The notes under the pieces: model-generated
The model's database searches: none
Told to the model about the DNA's origin: nothing
The model's input: the letters and a program-made list of their open reading frames with translations, nothing else
Origin: an uncultured Lachnospiraceae bacterium
Lineage (GTDB): Bacteria > Bacillota > Clostridia > Lachnospirales > Lachnospiraceae
Direction of reading: 5' to 3'
DNA length: 64,000 nucleotides
Assembly: GCA_946615865.1 (NCBI GenBank)
Contig: CAMOIJ010000008.1
Span: 1-64,000 of the forward strand
Shown here: positions 26,663 to 36,637 of the stretch, piece after piece
Numbering within the stretch: the stretch's first letter is position 1
Layout: each line of letters starts with the position of its first letter
Translations under genes and position numbers: made by a program

Positions 26663-28612
26663 GTGACTAAACTGACTGAAAATCTGAATAAAAAACAGAA
26701 GAATCTGCTGCTGCGTATCATTGCGGCAGCAGTTATGCTTGTGATTCTATATCTCCTCCCTCTGGAGGATTACCCGGTGCTGCGGTTTCTGCTCTTTCTG
26801 ATCCCGTATTTCACCGTGGGATATGACGTTCTGCGCAAGGCCTGGAAGGGAATCCGGAACCATCAGGTTTTCGATGAGTGTTTCCTGATGGCTGTGGCTA
26901 CCATCGGCGCGATGATCCTGGGCGAGTATACCGAGGCCGTGGCGGTTATGCTGTTTTACCAGATCGGTGAGCTGTTTCAAAGCATTGCCGTCGGCAAGAG
27001 CCGGCGCAGCATCAGCGACCTGATGGATATCCGTCCTGACTACGCAAACCTCGAGCAGGACGGAGAAGTGGAGAGAGTAGACCCTGATGAGGTCGAAGTC
27101 GGCAGTATCATCGTGATCCGGCCGGGCGAGAAGGTCCCGATCGACGGTATAGTTGTAGAGGGAAATTCTTCACTTAATACCAGCGCCCTGACCGGCGAGA
27201 GCCTTCCCAGAGACGTCAAGCCGGGCGACGAGATCATCAGCGGTTCTGTAAATATGAGCGGCCTGCTGCGCGTCGAGACTACCAAAGAATTCGACGAATC
27301 AACCGCCTCCAAGATCCTGGAACTGGTGGAGAACGCGGGCGAGCGCAAGGCCAAGTCCGAGCAGTTCATCACCAAATTCGCGAGGTGGTATACGCCTGCG
27401 GTATGCTACAGCGCATTGGCGCTTGCAATCCTCGGGCCGCTGGTCAATATTTTGGTATTTCATAAGCCCGGCGACTGGGCGCTGTGGTCCGACTGGATCT
27501 ACAGGGCGCTCACCTTCCTGGTCATCAGCTGCCCCTGCGCGATCGTGGTCAGTGTGCCGCTGTCCTTCTTCGGCGGGATCGGCGGCGCGAGCAGCGAGGG
27601 CATCCTGATCAAGGGCTCTAACTTTATGGAGACCCTGGCTAATGTCAAATATCTGGTCATGGACAAGACCGGAACCATTACCAAAGGTAATTTCGAGGTG
27701 ACGGCGGTTCACGACGGACGGGATCAAAACATAGACTCTGCAGAAATCTTAGAGCTCGCCGCGTTGGCGGAGAGTCACTCCTCGCATCCTATCGCGTCCA
27801 GCATCCGGCGCGCGTATGAGGCCGGAGGTGCGGAGCTTGACAAGAGCCGCGTGGCGGATGTGCAGGAAGTCAGCGGCAAGGGCGTGATCGCAGTCGTTGA
27901 CGGGATGCAGGTTGCAGCAGGGAATCTCAAGCTGATAAAGATGCTTGAAGTCGACTGTGAGCCGTGCCATCATGTGGGGACTATTGTATATGTGGCGAAG
28001 GGCGCCGCGGGCGGACCGCTAACCTACATCGGCCATGTGGTCATCTCCGACGAGATCAAGCCGACTTCCGCGGAAGCAATCAGTGCATTGAAGAAGGCAG
28101 GCGTAGTGAAGACAGTCATGCTGACCGGTGATATTACTTCTATGGCGGAAAGTGTGGCGAAAGAAGTGGGCCTGGACGAGGTGCATGCAGAGCTCCTGCC
28201 GGAAGACAAAGTGATGCATGTGGAGAAACTCATTGCTGAGAAGAACGCGCAGGCAGGTCCCGGTGCCGCGCTTGCCTTTGTCGGCGACGGCATCAACGAC
28301 GCACCGGTCCTGGCTATTGCAGACCTGGGTATAGCGATGGGAGCCCTTGGCTCCGACGCGGCTATTGAGGCGGCAGATGTCGTCCTTATGGATGACGACC
28401 CGGCGAAGATCGTCAAGGCGATCCGCATTGCGCGCAAGTGCATCCGTATCGTCAATGAGAATATCTGGTTCGCCATCGGCGTGAAGTTCCTGTGCCTGAT
28501 CCTCGGTGCACTTGGCATCGCGAATATGTGGCTCGCGATCTTTGCGGACGTGGGCGTCATGGTGCTCTGCGTGCTGAACGCGGTAAGGGCGCTGTTTGTG
28601 AAGAATGTGTAA
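26663..28612 (+). CDS. P1B-type heavy-metal-exporting ATPase (Zn/Cd/Pb class)
   Basis: 649 residues from a GTG start with AAGGAG nine bases upstream. It has the actuator motif LTGES, the membrane metal site SCPCAIVVSVP, the phosphorylated Asp334 in DKTGTIT, the SSHP motif and GDGINDAPVLA. The C-terminal helix segment (KFLCLILGALGIANMWLAIFADVG) carries the Asp expected of ZntA/CadA-type pumps. There is no N-terminal HMA domain; it is encoded separately just upstream. It should export divalent soft metals using ATP. Confidence 0.94.
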   Translation: MTKLTENLNKKQKNLLLRIIAAAVMLVILYLLPLEDYPVLRFLLFLIPYFTVGYDVLRKAWKGIRNHQVFDECFLMAVATIGAMILGEYTEAVAVMLFYQIGELFQSIAVGKSRRSISDLMDIRPDYANLEQDGEVERVDPDEVEVGSIIVIRPGEKVPIDGIVVEGNSSLNTSALTGESLPRDVKPGDEIISGSVNMSGLLRVETTKEFDESTASKILELVENAGERKAKSEQFITKFARWYTPAVCYSALALAILGPLVNILVFHKPGDWALWSDWIYRALTFLVISCPCAIVVSVPLSFFGGIGGASSEGILIKGSNFMETLANVKYLVMDKTGTITKGNFEVTAVHDGRDQNIDSAEILELAALAESHSSHPIASSIRRAYEAGGAELDKSRVADVQEVSGKGVIAVVDGMQVAAGNLKLIKMLEVDCEPCHHVGTIVYVAKGAAGGPLTYIGHVVISDEIKPTSAEAISALKKAGVVKTVMLTGDITSMAESVAKEVGLDEVHAELLPEDKVMHVEKLIAEKNAQAGPGAALAFVGDGINDAPVLAIADLGIAMGALGSDAAIEAADVVLMDDDPAKIVKAIRIARKCIRIVNENIWFAIGVKFLCLILGALGIANMWLAIFADVGVMVLCVLNAVRALFVKNV

Positions 28613-28651: not shown

Positions 28652-28691
28652 GGCCCGGTGGGGCGGTTTGTCGGCTTGCGGGGCCTTTTTT
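28652..28691 (+). terminator. Terminator after the metal-resistance operon
   Basis: GGCCC (28652-28656) can pair with GGGCC (28681-28685) across a GC-rich loop, followed by six T. It lies about 40 bases after the ATPase stop. Confidence 0.65.
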
Positions 28692-28749
28692 GTGTGCTCT
28701 GGTGTTATCTGCCTTCCTGGTTTGCCGGGTGTCTGGCTGAATGGGCAAA

Positions 28750-29240
28750 AAATTTCCATCCATTATGGGGCGTCGTCAAATTGGATGGTGTGGTTAAGGC
28801 TTGTTAGGCTTGAACGGGCACAAATTTTCCATCCTCTTTGGCGTGTCGTCAAAATTGGATGGTGCTTTATGACTTATCTGGCACAAGCTCTACATCCGAT
28901 TGCCGTCTCGATTGAATCCGATGGTGTGAAAAAAGCTTGTTGAGCACAAACTCTACATCCGATTACGTCTTCAGCCATATCCGATGGTATGCATGCTAAG
29001 GAAAGCTCAAATTTATTACATCCATCTACGCTTTCGATCAAATCCGATGGTATACCTGCCTGAAATGCTCAAATTCTCTACATCCGATCACGCTTTCAGC
29101 CATATCCGATGGTAGATTTTCGAATGAACGCTTTAAAACGCTACATCGACTTTAGGATATCGCCAAATCGGATGGTACGGTTCAAATATCTGGTACAAAC
29201 ACTACATCCATTCTTGTGTTCGTCAATATCAGATGGATTG
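28750..29240. repeat. Array of eight degenerate hairpin repeats, mostly 61-64 bp apart
   Basis: Eight units begin at about 28756, 28829, 28893, 28956, 29019, 29081, 29144 and 29205, so the spacing is 73, 64, 63, 63, 62, 63 and 61. Each has a left arm like TACATCCGAT and a right arm like ATCCGATGGT about 15 bases apart, so each can fold as a hairpin. The first two have perfect CCATCC/GGATGG arms. The linkers also share a rough GCACAAA ending. Stops and frame changes rule out a normal coding repeat. Confidence 0.8.
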
Positions 29241-29296
29241 ACCGAAAATAAGACTAATTATAGACATTTCAAATGAAAAGCGAGCTCAGAAAAAAT

Positions 29297-29304
29297 GATA
29301 TAAT
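29297..29304 (+). promoter_or_regulatory. Extended -10 promoter for the subtilase gene
   Basis: TGATATAAT forms an extended -10 (TGn plus TATAAT at 29299-29304). No good -35 is seen 17 bases upstream. It lies 40 bases before the subtilase ATG and 60 bases after the hairpin array. Confidence 0.5.
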
Positions 29305-29343
29305 AAACACATTATTTTCAATCATAACCGGAGAGACAAAACC

Positions 29344-32300
29344 ATGAGAAAAACTGTAATTGCTCTGGCAATGTGTGTAACCTTAGCCTTTTCGTCAAAA
29401 AGTGCCGCGTTTGCGGTATTTCAAACAACTACACCCGCTTCCGCAGCTGACGTGCAGAAATCATATGTCGAAGGGGAAGCCCTCGCGATCGTCAAAGGAG
29501 ATATACAGCTGAAAGGACCAGGCAAAGTCGAGCGCATTGCGCAGGTCAGCTCATTGGCTCTTCAGGACGTCCTTGAAGAGTGGGATGATAGCGAGGTCTT
29601 GACCAAAGAGAGCAGGCGACAGTTCGAAGAGGATGAGACCTTCGCGATCTGGAGCGTCAGTGACCGTAATCAGACGACAGAGGAAATTCTGCGAGAGCTT
29701 CGGACTGATCCGGATGTGATCGCCGCGGAACCGAATTATATCGCTTATGCCGCGAATGAAGAAGAGGCGGAAGCAGAGCCGGAAGAAGCGGTGGAAGCCG
29801 CGGAAGCGGAGACGGAAGAACCGGAAGCCGACAACACCGAACCCACAGTAACCAAGGGAGACCTCTCACCTATGCAGTGGTCAAATGGCAGCCCGGGTTC
29901 GGAAGCGCCCGCGATCTATACCACCCCTCTTTCGCCGACAGCCGGCTACACTATGGAGGTGCCCGGCTGGCAGGAAGGGCGGACGAACCTGAATGCCCCG
30001 GCTAACGCGGGAGGCACGATCTGCATAATGGATACCGGTGTTGATACGGACCACCCCGATCTGCAAGGCGTGCTCTACGAGTTTACGCCGGAGCAGCAGG
30101 CGAAGTATGGCTGCGGCAAGTACGGCTATAACGCCAGCGGCGACGGACGGCCGGAGAATGAGCAGAAAGCGACTGATTCCCACGGCACGCATGTGGCGGG
30201 CATTATTGCCGCGAACTGGAACGGTGAAGGAACATCCGGTATTGCCAACGGAGTCAAAATATTCTCCGTCAATGTATTTGGCGGAAACGGGACGGAGCAG
30301 GATTTGAGATCCGTCGTCAAAGGATTTCAGTTTCTTGTGGATGTGGCGCAGGAAGTCAACCTCAAGGCAGTCAACTGCTCCTGGGGCACGGCGCAGTCCA
30401 TATTTATTCTCTCTGTCATGATGGATGAGCTTGGCCGCAAAGGGGTTAATACCGTCATTGCCTCCGGAAACCGCTATTGCGACCTGGATGAGTCTATCGA
30501 CCTGGGCAGTATGACCAACAGTGAATACGTGATCGTTGTGGACGCCGCGTCTATGGATGGAAAGATGACGGATTTTTCATGCTGGGGCCAGGGCACGACG
30601 GATGTCTTTGCGCCGGGCGGCGGGATCCTCTCTTCTGTTACACAGATCATCCGAGAGGATATGATGGACGAGGTCTACAGCTATCAGGACAACACGCGCT
30701 TTATTCCCGAAGTGACGCCCGAGGAACATCTGCTGTCCGGGATCGAGCGCTTTGATGAAGAAGAGCCGGGCGTGCGCTTTTTTGACGCAAATCCGGCGCT
30801 GAGCGGGGAGGCCAAAGAGATCGGAGAGATCAATACAGCAAACGGCTTCGACGACAAACGGGCAGCGGCAGTGCACCTTTCTGATCTCAAGAAGGAGGCG
30901 CAGCGGGAGCACTCCGGCTTCTCCGCGATTAACGGATATGTATATATGGCGATCCCGGTGCCTTCCGGGGAAAACGCCGAGTGGATCAGTGTCAAAACAG
31001 CGATGAGCGACGGTTTTAAACCTAACGGCGGGATCGATTCGATCACCTGCAAAGGCGTGGACGGCGAGCCAGTCGAGATCGACTGCCTGTGCTCTGGCGC
31101 GCTGAAGAAGGGTTATGAGACAGGTGCCTTCAGCAATATTTATCAGTGTCAGTGGGCACAGCTCAGCTTCAATGTAAAGGGCTTTATCGATGCGTCGAAC
31201 GAGCTCCATGAAATGCTTCAGAAGGGCATGGAACAGGAGAAGATAAATAACCTCGGGATTGCCGATTACAAGGATCCCGGCGAGATCACAGGCATCTATG
31301 AGTGGGAGGACCAGGGACAGACTTACCTGATCGCGCGGATCGGGATCGGTCATGTCGCAAAGGACAGCCGATCATATGAGAGCACACAGGATACCACTCT
31401 CTATTTTGACAACGCGGCAGCTGGCGATGCAGATGCTTATACGGGCGCCTATATGTTCATGTCCGGCACATCGATGGCGGCGCCGGCGGTGACCGGGTGC
31501 CTTGGCGTGATCGCGAAGGATGAGCCCGCGAATGCTTCGCTTTCGGAGGAAGAACTCATGGAAGCGGCGCGCGGAAGAGCTGCCAAACTTCTTGCAGCAG
31601 TTGACTATGACGAGGCTCTCTCCGGGCTCTGCAGCACAGGCGGCAGGGTCAATCTGCACGGACAGTCGGAATTTGTCCGCAAGGCACCTTTGATCAGCAG
31701 GGCACAGGTGGAGGACCGTGTTCTGGAGCTGTCGGGATGGTATTTTGGCCAGGAAGGAACACTGGCAATAGACGGCGCAGAAATCGAAACGCAGACGTGG
31801 CAGGACAACATAATCACGGCGGATATCCGCGCACTTCCTAACGGATCGCATGTGGCGGCGGTCACAAATGCGGACGGCGCGGTGAACAGGGCAGTGTTCA
31901 GTACTTCCTCTCAGGACGCGGAAGGGCGCATGCTCTTTGAAAGATCCCACAGCCTTCCCATTAACGATCCTGCGTTTATCGCGGACCAAAGCGACCGCAT
32001 CTACGGACCGATGGCGATAAGCGGCGGAAAGATCTACACGATGGCGGAGACGGCCAAGTACAAAATAGCGCAGGCAATATGGTGCTATGATATCGAGGAG
32101 GACAGCTGGGCTCGGCTTCCATTGCCCGAAGGATGCGATCCGCAGTCGATCAGAGACGGGGACTTTGCTTCTTTGCGTGACAGACTATACCTGTATGGTA
32201 TACACCTTTCAACGGATGAATCCGGATTGAACGTGAGCAGAGGATGCCTGTGGCGCTATGAGCCTTACGGAGATTTTTGGGAACAACTGGAGATTCCTTT

Positions 32301-33156
32301 ACCTGATAACGCCGAAGGCATCTGCGCGCTGGGAGACGAACTCTTTGTGGTGGGCGGCAGTGTTTATGACATGCAGCTCGAAGGAGCGCCTGCCGATAGT
32401 GATGGAGCTTACAACGCCGGTTTCTACAAGGCGGACCTGGCACGCGGCGCGCTTGTCCGGGTCGGAGGGAAGCTTCCTGATGATGCCGCGATGGTCAACA
32501 CGAAGGTTGCATCGGGCAAAGACAGGATGTACATTTACGCGGAAATTGACGAAAGCTATTATGATGATACCGGGGAAACTCCGGCAAGTGGAGCAGAATA
32601 CAGCAAGACAGTTTCAGGTGGAGTGCTTTACCGCGTCGCCTATGATGGCGCTGAGAACAAGATCAGTTTCGAGGATCTGACGGGCACTCTCAATAAAACA
32701 TTGGGGGATGGCCTGCGCACGGAATATGAGTACAAGATGAGAGCGGATACACCGGGCGAGCACTTCGCGATCGCGGGCCTTGATACGGGTGTCGCGATCA
32801 TCGGATCTTCCGTAAACGGCGAAGATGTGCATATCATCTACGATACCGACGAGAAAGCTGTGCTTTACGACAGAGCTACTTGCTATCACAAGGCTTATGA
32901 TCCGATCGCAGCTTCCGACGGCAGAAGGCTTTACGTGATCGGTTACAATGGAACAGAGCCGGATGTGATGTATTTCCGGTCTCAGGAGATTACGCCGCAG
33001 GCAGCGGCGAACGAAAGCGGCGCGCCCGGAGGAACCGGCGGCGTCAGCAGCGGCGGAATGGACCCCACGGTCATCGGCGGAGTGACTATCGGATTGTTTG
33101 CAGCTATGGTCGTTGTGCTCTCGATCACGCGCAGGAAGAGCAGAACAGGGGAGTGA
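29344..33156 (+). CDS. Cell-surface S8 family (subtilisin-like) serine protease with kelch-like region
   Basis: 1270 residues. A signal peptide (MRKTVIALAMCVTLAFSSKS) is followed by a propeptide-like segment (about 38-135) and an acidic Glu-rich linker. The S8 catalytic domain has Asp230 in IMDTGVDTDHPDL, His280 in DSHGTHVAGI and Ser710 in MSGTSMAAP. About 430 residues separate His and Ser, far more than in subtilisin, so a large domain is inserted. The region from about 880 to 1200 has kelch-like strands (GGKIYTMAE, LRDRLYLYG, LGDELFVVGG). A C-terminal helix (about 1240-1262) plus RRKSRTGE anchors it in the membrane. ATG behind CCGGAGAG. Confidence 0.92.
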   Translation: MRKTVIALAMCVTLAFSSKSAAFAVFQTTTPASAADVQKSYVEGEALAIVKGDIQLKGPGKVERIAQVSSLALQDVLEEWDDSEVLTKESRRQFEEDETFAIWSVSDRNQTTEEILRELRTDPDVIAAEPNYIAYAANEEEAEAEPEEAVEAAEAETEEPEADNTEPTVTKGDLSPMQWSNGSPGSEAPAIYTTPLSPTAGYTMEVPGWQEGRTNLNAPANAGGTICIMDTGVDTDHPDLQGVLYEFTPEQQAKYGCGKYGYNASGDGRPENEQKATDSHGTHVAGIIAANWNGEGTSGIANGVKIFSVNVFGGNGTEQDLRSVVKGFQFLVDVAQEVNLKAVNCSWGTAQSIFILSVMMDELGRKGVNTVIASGNRYCDLDESIDLGSMTNSEYVIVVDAASMDGKMTDFSCWGQGTTDVFAPGGGILSSVTQIIREDMMDEVYSYQDNTRFIPEVTPEEHLLSGIERFDEEEPGVRFFDANPALSGEAKEIGEINTANGFDDKRAAAVHLSDLKKEAQREHSGFSAINGYVYMAIPVPSGENAEWISVKTAMSDGFKPNGGIDSITCKGVDGEPVEIDCLCSGALKKGYETGAFSNIYQCQWAQLSFNVKGFIDASNELHEMLQKGMEQEKINNLGIADYKDPGEITGIYEWEDQGQTYLIARIGIGHVAKDSRSYESTQDTTLYFDNAAAGDADAYTGAYMFMSGTSMAAPAVTGCLGVIAKDEPANASLSEEELMEAARGRAAKLLAAVDYDEALSGLCSTGGRVNLHGQSEFVRKAPLISRAQVEDRVLELSGWYFGQEGTLAIDGAEIETQTWQDNIITADIRALPNGSHVAAVTNADGAVNRAVFSTSSQDAEGRMLFERSHSLPINDPAFIADQSDRIYGPMAISGGKIYTMAETAKYKIAQAIWCYDIEEDSWARLPLPEGCDPQSIRDGDFASLRDRLYLYGIHLSTDESGLNVSRGCLWRYEPYGDFWEQLEIPLPDNAEGICALGDELFVVGGSVYDMQLEGAPADSDGAYNAGFYKADLARGALVRVGGKLPDDAAMVNTKVASGKDRMYIYAEIDESYYDDTGETPASGAEYSKTVSGGVLYRVAYDGAENKISFEDLTGTLNKTLGDGLRTEYEYKMRADTPGEHFAIAGLDTGVAIIGSSVNGEDVHIIYDTDEKAVLYDRATCYHKAYDPIAASDGRRLYVIGYNGTEPDVMYFRSQEITPQAAANESGAPGGTGGVSSGGMDPTVIGGVTIGLFAAMVVVLSITRRKSRTGE

Positions 33157-33277: not shown

Positions 33278-33320
33278 TTTACAGTAAGATACTATTTGTC
33301 GAATGAAAATCATATGACAT

Positions 33321-33393
33321 GGGGGCGTAGCTCAGTTGGGAGAGCGCGACACTGGCAGTGTTGAGGTCATGGGTTCAAGTCCCACCGTCTCCA
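33321..33393 (+). tRNA. tRNA-Ala (anticodon GGC)
   Basis: A 73-base cloverleaf: acceptor GGGGGCG/CGTCTCC including the alanine-identity G3-U70 pair, D-arm GCTC..GAGC, anticodon stem CGACA/TGTTG with loop CTGGCAG, and T-arm with TTCAAGT. The outermost T-stem pair is an A-C mismatch. CCA is not encoded. An integrase gene lies just downstream on the other strand. Confidence 0.93.
33371..33393 (+). other. Probable attL: 3' end of tRNA-Ala as integration site
   Basis: A tyrosine recombinase gene ends 55 bases after the tRNA 3' end, facing it, which is the usual layout when an element has integrated into a tRNA gene. The T-arm and acceptor 3' strand would be the core. No second copy of this sequence was found by eye in the window, so the exact core is not proven. 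Confidence 0.5.
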
Positions 33394-33409
33394 TTTTTGG
33401 GTTAATATG

Positions 33410-33455
33410 AAGTCCGAAAAGTGCTTTATTTAAAGGCTTTTCGGGCTTTATATTT
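33410..33455. terminator. Bidirectional terminator between tRNA-Ala and integrase
   Basis: AAGTCCGAAAAG (33410-33421) pairs with CTTTTCGGGCTT (33437-33448) with one G-U, followed by TATATTTTT on the plus strand. It serves the tRNA and overlaps the end of the integrase gene. Confidence 0.75.
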
Positions 33456-34851
33456 TTGTAAAAACTTCCGGGTGACTCGAATCTGCGTCCGGGTGACTCT
33501 TGCCTGGAAATCTAATCACCTGACAGTTCAAATTCAAATCCGAAGCATCTTCTTTAACGGGATCAAGACGGAGTTCATCAATTTTTCCAAGTTTGCAGGA
33601 TTTTTCTTCCATACGGTTGCGGTTCTTAATATAAACATTTTCCGTAGTACTGATATCCGTATGCCCCATCTGCTCAATGATCATCTGATCGTCAATGTCA
33701 GCCGCCTTTAATATGGATGCGTATGTCTTCCGGAATTTGTGGGGAGGCTTATAGCTTATTCCCAATTCGGCACATATTTTCTTCAGATGTCTTCTTACCT
33801 GGCTGGCACGGACTCGTTCTCCTACATAGCGTTCTCTGTATCTCCCCGGTTCCTGCTTGAACAGATATCCACCGCCGGTTTTCTCGGAAATGTCTTTAAT
33901 TCCACGTACCCATTCAAGAGAGTTTTCAGGAATCGCAACACGCCTGACTCCTGCATCAGTTTTAGCCCCTTCTTTGATAGTCTCCCGCTGTCTTCCTGTT
34001 TCATCCGCTTGTGTTTCTGTACGTCGGACATAAATACAATGTTCATCAAGATCAATATCCTCTGCAAGCAGAGCCGCACACTCACCGATCCGTTCGCCAG
34101 TTATGATTGCCAGTAGGATACAGCGTGTATATGGATCAGGATTAGTAAGGCAGTAGGTTTTCAGTGCCTGTAGTTCATCGGGGTAGTATACCTCGTCCTC
34201 TGTGGAATGTTTTGAATGACGAAATCCATGCATATCTGTACGAACATGGGAGATGACCTCATCAGAAGTATATGAGATAATGCCTTCATCTTCTGCTTGG
34301 TCAATAATCCCTTTCACTATGCATTTGACACGCCCTAACTCCTTTGCAGAAATCTTTCTCTTAAGATCCTCTTTTGTTGGACTGCCTGCTTCATAAATGC
34401 CTTGGAGAAATGCGGTCCACTCTTTACGAGTGATCCTTCTCATAGGCATCTTATTGATGTCTGCGCTTTTTATATATTTATCACAGGTCTTGCGATACCG
34501 AAGGGCAGTTGCACCCTGGATCACGCCTTTTTCAAGTCGGGAGGTATTCCATTCAGTAAAGATATCTTCAGGCATTTTTCCTGTGAGTTCCTTCTCTTTT
34601 CTGATTCTTTCCTTTTGGATCTGTAGGATTTCTTTTTCTACATCTTCCCGATTCTTTCTTTTAATCCTCCTTCCACCTGGGAGTCGGCAATACCATCTGC
34701 CGCCACTTTCAAAAATCTTGTATTCATATGAATCTAATAAGTTCATTCGCTCAGTCTCCTCGTACTGCTGGCGAATGCTGCCAAGATTTATTATGCCTGT
34801 GTCAATGGCATATTTCAAGATTTCGGGGTTTATCGATAATTCCTTGGTCAT
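33448..34851 (-). CDS. int: Site-specific tyrosine recombinase (integrase)
   Basis: About 467 residues. An N-terminal DNA-binding part contains GGRWYCRLPGGRRIKRKNRE, a core-binding domain spans about 105-200, and the catalytic domain has Arg in ITGERIGECA, HKFRKT (HxxR) and GHTDISTTENVYI with the nucleophilic Tyr. All key residues appear present. It cuts and joins att sites to integrate or excise the element. The ATG at 34851 lies eight bases after GGAGG; the tracked GTG at 34860 abuts that site and is unlikely. The gene faces tRNA-Ala, which fits that tRNA as the attachment site. Confidence 0.93.
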   Translation of the reverse strand: MTKELSINPEILKYAIDTGIINLGSIRQQYEETERMNLLDSYEYKIFESGGRWYCRLPGGRRIKRKNREDVEKEILQIQKERIRKEKELTGKMPEDIFTEWNTSRLEKGVIQGATALRYRKTCDKYIKSADINKMPMRRITRKEWTAFLQGIYEAGSPTKEDLKRKISAKELGRVKCIVKGIIDQAEDEGIISYTSDEVISHVRTDMHGFRHSKHSTEDEVYYPDELQALKTYCLTNPDPYTRCILLAIITGERIGECAALLAEDIDLDEHCIYVRRTETQADETGRQRETIKEGAKTDAGVRRVAIPENSLEWVRGIKDISEKTGGGYLFKQEPGRYRERYVGERVRASQVRRHLKKICAELGISYKPPHKFRKTYASILKAADIDDQMIIEQMGHTDISTTENVYIKNRNRMEEKSCKLGKIDELRLDPVKEDASDLNLNCQVIRFPGKSHPDADSSHPEVFTKI

Positions 34852-35308
34852 CTTTTTCACCTCCGTATGGAGGATGAAAGAAAAGGTAATAATTTTGCTA
34901 TTTATGAACGAAGCTACTTGTTTGATTACAAAAAGCTCGAATAGGCTTAAACGCTGTCAGAGGTGAAAGATGGATAGACACAATTAAAATCATCCAATTT
35001 CCAGGCTGACACGTAAATGTCTAATTAGACGATTCTGTACCGGATAATAGGTTCTCCAGAGAGAATGGGGGAGCACACTTGAGCAGAAATTATCCACTTT
35101 GCTAAAATAACAGAGTGTATACGGGCTAATATGATGCGAGTAATCTATGATCAGAAAACGACCAATATGATAACTGCGGAAAAGAAGAGTAAAAAAAGGG
35201 GAAGCCGAATGTGATTGGCGTCCCCGTTGTTATCTATTGTAATACGATACGAAGCATAATTCATGCATACTGTCCGCAGGTATATGATGAAAGCTATATT
35301 TCTTCAGT
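34852..35308. other. Intergenic region between integrase and VapE-like gene
   Basis: About 450 bases with no ORF I can support; no excisionase gene is evident. Near its right end, GGGGAAGCC and GGCGTCCCC (about 35199-35226) can form a hairpin that may end the VapE-side transcript. Confidence 0.4.
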
Positions 35309-36637
35309 TTATGCACAGCGCTGCCAGGCACGCTGCTTCCCGTAGCGAGGGAAGCGGTATTTAGAATCCTTTGCGGTACCGTTGAGTCCGGCATATCGCT
35401 TCCATCCAATGATGCTTAAATTCATGACTTCAGCGATCCTGGATAGTTCTTTCTCATCTGGTAAAGCATCTTCGGAGTCCTTGAACAGGCGCTCCCAGAT
35501 CATTCGGCTGCAGACGAGGTCCTCTTCGCACGTGTCAAGGAAGTCTTGGATCATGCCGGCGTTGCTGTTATCGGGCATAAGGCCGGACCGGATCACATCC
35601 AATTCATCCTGATACTCTCTGTCAAGGTCTAAGAGAAACCCATCTGTCTTGCCGATTGCTATTGCTTCCGCATAGCACTGACGGATATACTCACGAGTCT
35701 CAGCCTCGTCAGCCAGAGGATGTACTTCAGCTCTGCTCCCATCGCAGATTACCGGCACAAAGCGTCGGTTTCCAGTTCGATCATTCGGGAGACATCGGAA
35801 AAGATTCGACGTCCCAATGAAGATCGCCTGTCTTGGGTACTTTTCAGAAAAAGTGCCGTGTGGCTGTCGATAGCTGTCATATTGCCGGCTGAGATACCCT
35901 TTGATCACATTTACGTCTTGTGTTCTCCGGATGGCGACCATTTCGCCAAGTTCACAGATCCATCGGCCCCGTATTTTCTCATATGCTGTTTTCGTATCTC
36001 CGAAATGATCCAGGTCATCGCAGAAGTACTCATCCTCCAAGGCCAAAAATCTGCACAGAGAGCTTTTCCCTGTCCCCTGCTTGTTATCGAGGAGCGTGAT
36101 GCAGTAGTCGAACTTGATCCCAGGGTTCATTACCCTCTGAATAGCTCCGTGAAACAGAAGCTTCGTGATCTCGGTCGTAAGGACAGACCTTGTTGCGCCA
36201 AGATATCTTGGGAGAAACTCGCTAAGTCGGGGTTTTCCATCCCATTCGAGATTGTTGAGAGCATCCAGGATCGGATGAAAGCCTGTCTTCTCAGCAATCA
36301 AAGCGACGGCATCTTTGATATCTTTGCCCGGACTAACTTCGTAAGCGCAGTCAATGAAGCGTCTGAGATTGGAGATGTCATTGTCACATAGAGTGTGTTC
36401 TTTCGGGTGCCAGTATACATCCTTGAGCGTAACCCGCTTGTTGAAGACGTTCATCCTGGATTTCCCTGAGAGATATGGATCCTTTTCCAGGATTTCGCAG
36501 TAGTTTGCAAAAGACTTGGCGATCATCCCGGATGAATTCTGTTTGAGCTCAATCTGTCCGCCATTCATTCTACTCAGCCCTACTGCCTGTTCCATAGTCG
36601 TAATATCGCTATTAACCGTATATAAATCCGAACTCAT
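35309..36637 (-). CDS. VapE-family (virulence-associated E) helicase-like protein
   Basis: 442 residues matching the VapE family of SF3-like ATPases carried by phages, satellites and integrated elements. The family core WDGKPRLSEFLPRYL is followed by Walker A in LLDNKQGTGKSSL, a Walker B-like RWICELGEM and FIGTSNLFRCLPNDRTGNRR. In satellites the protein acts with a primase to start DNA replication. Here there is no primase domain in the visible protein, and the family is often longer. GGAGG precedes the ATG. It is transcribed away from the duplicated gene block. Confidence 0.88.
   Translation of the reverse strand: MSSDLYTVNSDITTMEQAVGLSRMNGGQIELKQNSSGMIAKSFANYCEILEKDPYLSGKSRMNVFNKRVTLKDVYWHPKEHTLCDNDISNLRRFIDCAYEVSPGKDIKDAVALIAEKTGFHPILDALNNLEWDGKPRLSEFLPRYLGATRSVLTTEITKLLFHGAIQRVMNPGIKFDYCITLLDNKQGTGKSSLCRFLALEDEYFCDDLDHFGDTKTAYEKIRGRWICELGEMVAIRRTQDVNVIKGYLSRQYDSYRQPHGTFSEKYPRQAIFIGTSNLFRCLPNDRTGNRRFVPVICDGSRAEVHPLADEAETREYIRQCYAEAIAIGKTDGFLLDLDREYQDELDVIRSGLMPDNSNAGMIQDFLDTCEEDLVCSRMIWERLFKDSEDALPDEKELSRIAEVMNLSIIGWKRYAGLNGTAKDSKYRFPRYGKQRAWQRCA

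Follow-up and report, generated by a model that had tools for sequence, protein, structure and literature searches.

Phase-locked arrays of inverted sites in a Lachnospiraceae genus: candidate binding arrays for a lineage-specific DNA-reading factor

Introduction

What is the function, if any, of a row of eight degenerate, hairpin-like units lying between a P-type ATPase gene and a subtilase gene in an uncultured Lachnospiraceae bacterium? The locus belongs to the window analysed here, a stretch of 64,000 nucleotides (positions 1 to 64,000 of contig CAMOIJ010000008.1, assembly GCA_946615865.1; source genome G000). An earlier note, made from the letters of this stretch, described the row as a decaying tandem array and offered three readings: a structured RNA array, a protein-binding array controlling the subtilase, or a guide-like array. 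We examined the array in its window, across its genome and across the genus.

Results

The window array consists of eight direct units at 28744-29237 (+) with a spacing of 61-63 bp and one of 74 bp, which confirms the eight-unit row described in the earlier note. Measured between the GATGG ends of the units (28788, 28862, 28924, 28987, 29050, 29112, 29175 and 29236), successive spacings are 74, 62, 63, 63, 62, 63 and 61 bp, the first reflecting an 11-bp gain in the linker preceding unit 2. A chain of [CA]CATC-N-GATGG motifs at unit spacing reached a length of 8 in the real sequence, compared with at most 1 in 2000 dinucleotide shuffles, and the CATC/GATG arm core is common to all eight units. 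The array and its neighbours are as follows.

26663-28612, P-type ATPase gene (E1-E2_ATPase, Pfam), on one side of the array
28673-28695, +, terminator-like hairpin with a run of T, separating the ATPase gene from the array (a consensus match alone; shuffles give about as many)
28756-28788, +, unit 1 inverted site, CCATCC...GGATGG, 33 bp
28829-28862, +, unit 2 inverted site, CCATCC...GGATGG, 34 bp
28892-28924, +, unit 3 inverted site, ACATCC...CGATGG, 33 bp
28955-28987, +, unit 4 inverted site, 33 bp
29018-29050, +, unit 5 inverted site, 33 bp; linker subtype B, CTCAAATT
29080-29112, +, unit 6 inverted site, 33 bp; linker subtype B
29143-29175, +, unit 7 inverted site, ACATCG...CGGATGG, 33 bp
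29204-29236, +, unit 8 inverted site, ACATCC...CAGATGG, 33 bp
29344-33156, subtilase gene (Peptidase_S8, Pfam), on the other side of the array

The C-terminal half of the large subtilase (29344-33156) bears weak Kelch-like similarity. Beyond it, positions 33320-36637 carry a tRNA-Ala(GGC), then a tyrosine recombinase (33448-34860, -) and a VapE-like protein (35309-36637, -), which is likely an integrated element.

The single array of the window proved to be one of at least 24 dispersed intergenic arrays in its genome, together more than 110 units, here termed family 1; a sequence-model search of the same genome yielded 116 matches at E values up to 0.01. The search of related genomes proposed in the earlier note likewise recovered similar arrays, although only some species of the genus have them. 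Family 1 is present in many copies in five of 62 genus genomes (G000, G003, G032, G069 and G088), with families 2 and 3, described below, in others; G068 has two weak family-1 units. The carriers are related, mostly rumen-derived bacteria with more than 20 arrays per genome. Among named records, a search of genome contigs found the exact family-1 pattern in RUG13037, UBA6998 and RUG14002, all metagenome-assembled genomes of uncultured Lachnospiraceae.

Alignment of 318 family-1 units gave the motif TCT[C/A]CATCC, a variable stretch of about 20 bases, then AATCCGATGG. CATC and GATG are nearly invariant, while most loop columns hold 0.1-0.9 bit, so that each unit presents an inverted site of 33-34 bp (MCATCC...CGATGG). 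A distance of 27 bp, or about 2.6 turns, separates the left arm from the right, an unusual geometry for a simple dimer site. Loop and linker sequences turn over fast; they are nevertheless related between units and between arrays, in agreement with the partial relatedness already noticed within the window. The order in which linker subtypes A and B succeed each other recurs in several arrays, and some arrays contain near-identical neighbouring units. The term 'decaying', however, does not describe the array, as sequence is replaced everywhere except in the arms.

The intergenic gaps that house family-1 arrays are long, and convergent genes often border them: this holds for 8 of 22 arrays, compared with 22 of 186 neighbouring gene pairs overall (codon-scored gene calls), and gaps of at least 350 bp, which include those with arrays, are convergent in 11 of 40 cases. 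Judged by eye from sequence, the reading frames flanking the G000 arrays resemble unrelated housekeeping genes with no common pathway. Given this lack of a theme, no regulated pathway is visible, and single-gene regulation was rejected as an explanation.

Spacings across arrays cluster at 43, 52-54, 61-65 and 71-75 bp, corresponding to 4, 5, 6 and 7 helical turns, with 61-65 bp as the dominant class. The changes sit mostly in the linker, where gains or losses of 8-11 bp lead to spacings of 71-74 and 52-54 bp. A Rayleigh test on 12 departures from 63 bp at a period of 10.5 bp gave R = 0.65 and p ≈ 0.004 with a mean phase equal to that of 63, the 12 being a small number obtained by hand reduction to one per likely event, in which the choice of independent departures was the author's judgement. 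Some spacing changes (those of the 53-54 bp junction units) may go back to a single ancestor, and the phasing could partly be inherited unit length. The spacing in integral helical turns, as far as few independent departures can define it, is that of a phased protein-binding array.

Array sites persist between species while the sequence within them is replaced. For most G000 arrays, at least one sister species also has an array in the orthologous position; in some of these pairs, identity is 59-80% within the array but 90-100% in one flank or in both. Unit number and content vary. At the window site, identity with G003 is 97% in the coding flank but 47% in the array region, with arms and period kept (GATGG ends at spacings of 63, 63, 43, 63 and 74 bp).

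The window array itself is 100% identical between G000 and G032, over the array plus 400 bp downstream, with outer flanks at 86-91%. Constraint on the array was considered as the reason for this identity and rejected because the identical block overruns the array by 400 bp, which speaks for recombination. In the comparison of window positions 28736-29640 with both G032 and G069, the array plus about 400 bp downstream is 99-100% identical between outer flanks of 86-91%; this block looks like recent recombination.

Arrays of this layout, but with different arms, occur in two further groups of species in the genus. In G068, a blind scan for periodicity revealed a 75-bp array that is multi-copy in G068 and G083 (family 2), with arms CCTACGA/TCGTCGG and a bimodal spacing of 63-64 or 73-75 bp. 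A scan of G035 yielded family 3, likewise multi-copy, with arms CCGATAA/TTATCGG and a spacing of 63-65 bp. The inverted site measures about 33-34 bp in all three families. Between the orthologs of a 501-aa and an approximately 610-aa reading frame, one and the same intergenic site is occupied by family 1 in G000 and G032 and by family 2 in G083 and G068; a second such site shares one neighbour only. G068 and G083 also have a family-2 array near the subtilase ortholog, downstream of the gene.

The blind autocorrelation scan covered 1.32 Mb from seven other genomes. Most of what it returned beyond families 2 and 3 was coding repeats, along with a single homogeneous 71-bp array and two weak stretches that are partly open; samples of G062, G084, G057 and G073 contained no comparable non-coding array, and the G089 sample contained only the homogeneous 71-bp repeat. 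This tandem repeat (L215:48-549, contig G089:C10) has AAGGGCA/TGCCCTT arms, and a GGGCACT repeat of about 70 bp that resembles it lies downstream of a G000 array (L077, contig G000:C25). The two form a separate repeat class.

A RAYT-driven REP system was the strongest rival explanation because a RAYT ortholog accompanies the arrays. It would make the units REP/BIME-like palindromes, selfish or domesticated, spread by a Y1 (RAYT) or other transposase and amplified in tandem, with any host role secondary. The units indeed resemble REPs as imperfect palindromes in the 20-40 bp range (33-34 bp) with many dispersed intergenic copies, in lineage-specific families and with a bias towards convergent genes (PMC3733652). 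The RAYT ortholog, 90-99% identical, occurs in all five family-1 genomes, and homologs occur in family-2 and family-3 genomes. However, no array unit lies near the 12 Y1_Tnp loci examined, and RAYT as the partner of the arrays was rejected: it co-occurs with them but is flanked by its own palindrome, distinct from array units. Units within an array share one orientation, head-to-tail, instead of alternating. The unpaired GTAG or CGTC that tags one end of REPs is not found either; GTAG is not conserved, the corresponding place being split 156/158 between A and C, and in family 2 CGTC lies inside the arm. Moreover, array sites are stable between species, and neither a single-unit insertion nor, in a non-systematic look, an empty site with duplication was seen. 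Taking both sides together, we regard a REP origin as unlikely.

RAYT-type Y1 transposase genes of about 250 aa are flanked by the palindrome GACCTCTGGGGT(C), seen at L160:2050-2300 (G068), at L171:970-1200 (G083) and on the flanks of the RAYT gene in L150 (G000); it is arranged in tandem at 35-37 bp in two species. Gene and palindrome are likely a RAYT/REP pair in Lachnospiraceae.

Functionless tandem repeats of the MIRU/VNTR kind, expanding and contracting through slippage and gene conversion, would account for the variation in unit number and content between sister species and for near-identical neighbouring units. Such neutrality is nonetheless hard to reconcile with arms that stay invariant while the remainder drops to about 50% identity, with phased spacing that survives linker change, and with related species whose arrays differ in sequence family but agree in period and site length; we give it little credence.

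Less credible still is a row of structured RNA hairpins that would be transcribed and perhaps processed. Inverted arms are present, and the claim that they can pair in every window unit is formally true, but the conserved pairing core is 4-5 bp and in family 1 encloses about 22 nt of loop; as single strands, no units of the window array besides 1 and 2 give a convincing fold. Covariation, the check put forward for this reading, failed to appear: compensatory change within family 1 was not above shuffles, and unit-level compensation in family-2 arms was not significant (Fisher p = 0.34). Since an RNA hairpin would be expected to show compensation unit by unit, its absence disfavours the RNA reading. 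The arrays had no Rfam match, and the terminator-like site, a consensus match alone, separates the upstream ATPase gene from the window array. The arrays are thus probably not RNA. Nor do they code for protein, in agreement with the earlier note; no persistent open frame exists in family 1, where 62- and 64-bp units and stops break the frames.

Finally, despite regular spacing and partly variable segments, the arrays are not CRISPR, as already argued for the window, and a guide-like role is scarcely conceivable, for the repeats are degenerate, the variable linkers and loops are related to one another, flanking reading frames resemble housekeeping genes (window neighbours searched against Pfam gave no Cas match; the G000 flanks were judged by eye only), the window array had no match in phages or plasmids and the family-1 pattern had none in viral contigs.

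Discussion

Of the three readings originally offered, protein binding fits best, given that spacing is helically phased, arms are invariant and arm sequences are replaced lineage by lineage. Its link to the subtilase does not hold, since the same arrays lie beside many unrelated genes and the family-2 array of the sister lineage is downstream of the subtilase. We see an even chance that the arrays are DNA-level, phase-locked binding arrays for a lineage-specific sequence-reading factor, perhaps with a role in structuring the chromosome rather than in controlling single genes. Each array would act as a double-stranded DNA element that places inverted sites of 33-34 bp on one face of the helix at intervals of six turns, or also of four, five or seven, and a putative clade-specific, sequence-specific DNA-binding protein would read the row cooperatively. 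One postulated factor might serve all of the 20 or more arrays of a genome. Protein binding, cooperativity, a role in the nucleoid or its topology and co-evolution with one factor are what we infer; arms that are short and invariant, loops and linkers that vary freely, spacing in whole turns and arm sequences exchanged by lineage together fit a single DNA-binding factor in each lineage. The lack of covariation within a genome is as expected if the units do not fold individually but are all read by the same protein. A structuring, boundary or topological role appears likelier than control of one gene because arrays lie in long intergenic gaps, often between convergent genes.

Should the specificity of the factor shift in a lineage, both arms of all units would shift together. 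We put forward, more tentatively, a genus-level class of arrays in Lachnospiraceae, whose whole-turn inverted sites may be read by a postulated fast-evolving DNA-binding protein; the recognition sequence would be replaced genome-wide in each lineage, with array sites, site length and phase kept, as in the co-evolution of satellites and centromeres. If true, these bacteria would possess satellite-like, phase-locked binding arrays with a co-evolving reader, and bacterial chromosome organisation would be opened to direct test, by asking which protein reads the arms and what a 5-bp shift does. Degenerate repeats can mimic decay when selection acts on arms and spacing alone.

Several known systems resemble the arrays in part. 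Neisserial NIME arrays are intergenic variable segments bounded by short inverted repeats (dRS3), a layout shared with the arrays described here; dRS3, however, is a fixed 20-bp repeat, whereas the arms of the present arrays switch between species, and we know of no helical phasing in NIME/dRS3 arrays. Mycobacterial MIRU and staphylococcal STAR elements are dispersed intergenic direct tandem repeats that, like the present arrays, occupy stable sites with varying unit number; units here differ in being highly degenerate except for the arms, and in a spacing that changes in steps of about one helical turn. With REP/BIME and RAYT systems (PMC3733652, PMC2817692) the arrays share short imperfect palindromes, many intergenic copies, lineage-specific families and a bias towards gene ends and convergent gaps, but they are strictly direct, with a long 20-bp loop and phase-locked spacing, lack a conserved GTAG or CGTC tag and are unlinked to the RAYT gene. 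In phased protein-binding arrays such as those of H-NS, a cooperative nucleoprotein structure takes its form from how the binding sites are arranged (PMC5418058), which is the feature in common; the motif here differs in being specific and lineage-switched, and its reader is postulated. A phase lock in bacterial interspersed palindromic repeats was not found described in the open-access literature searched, and the arrays are probably a variant of such repeats that has one.
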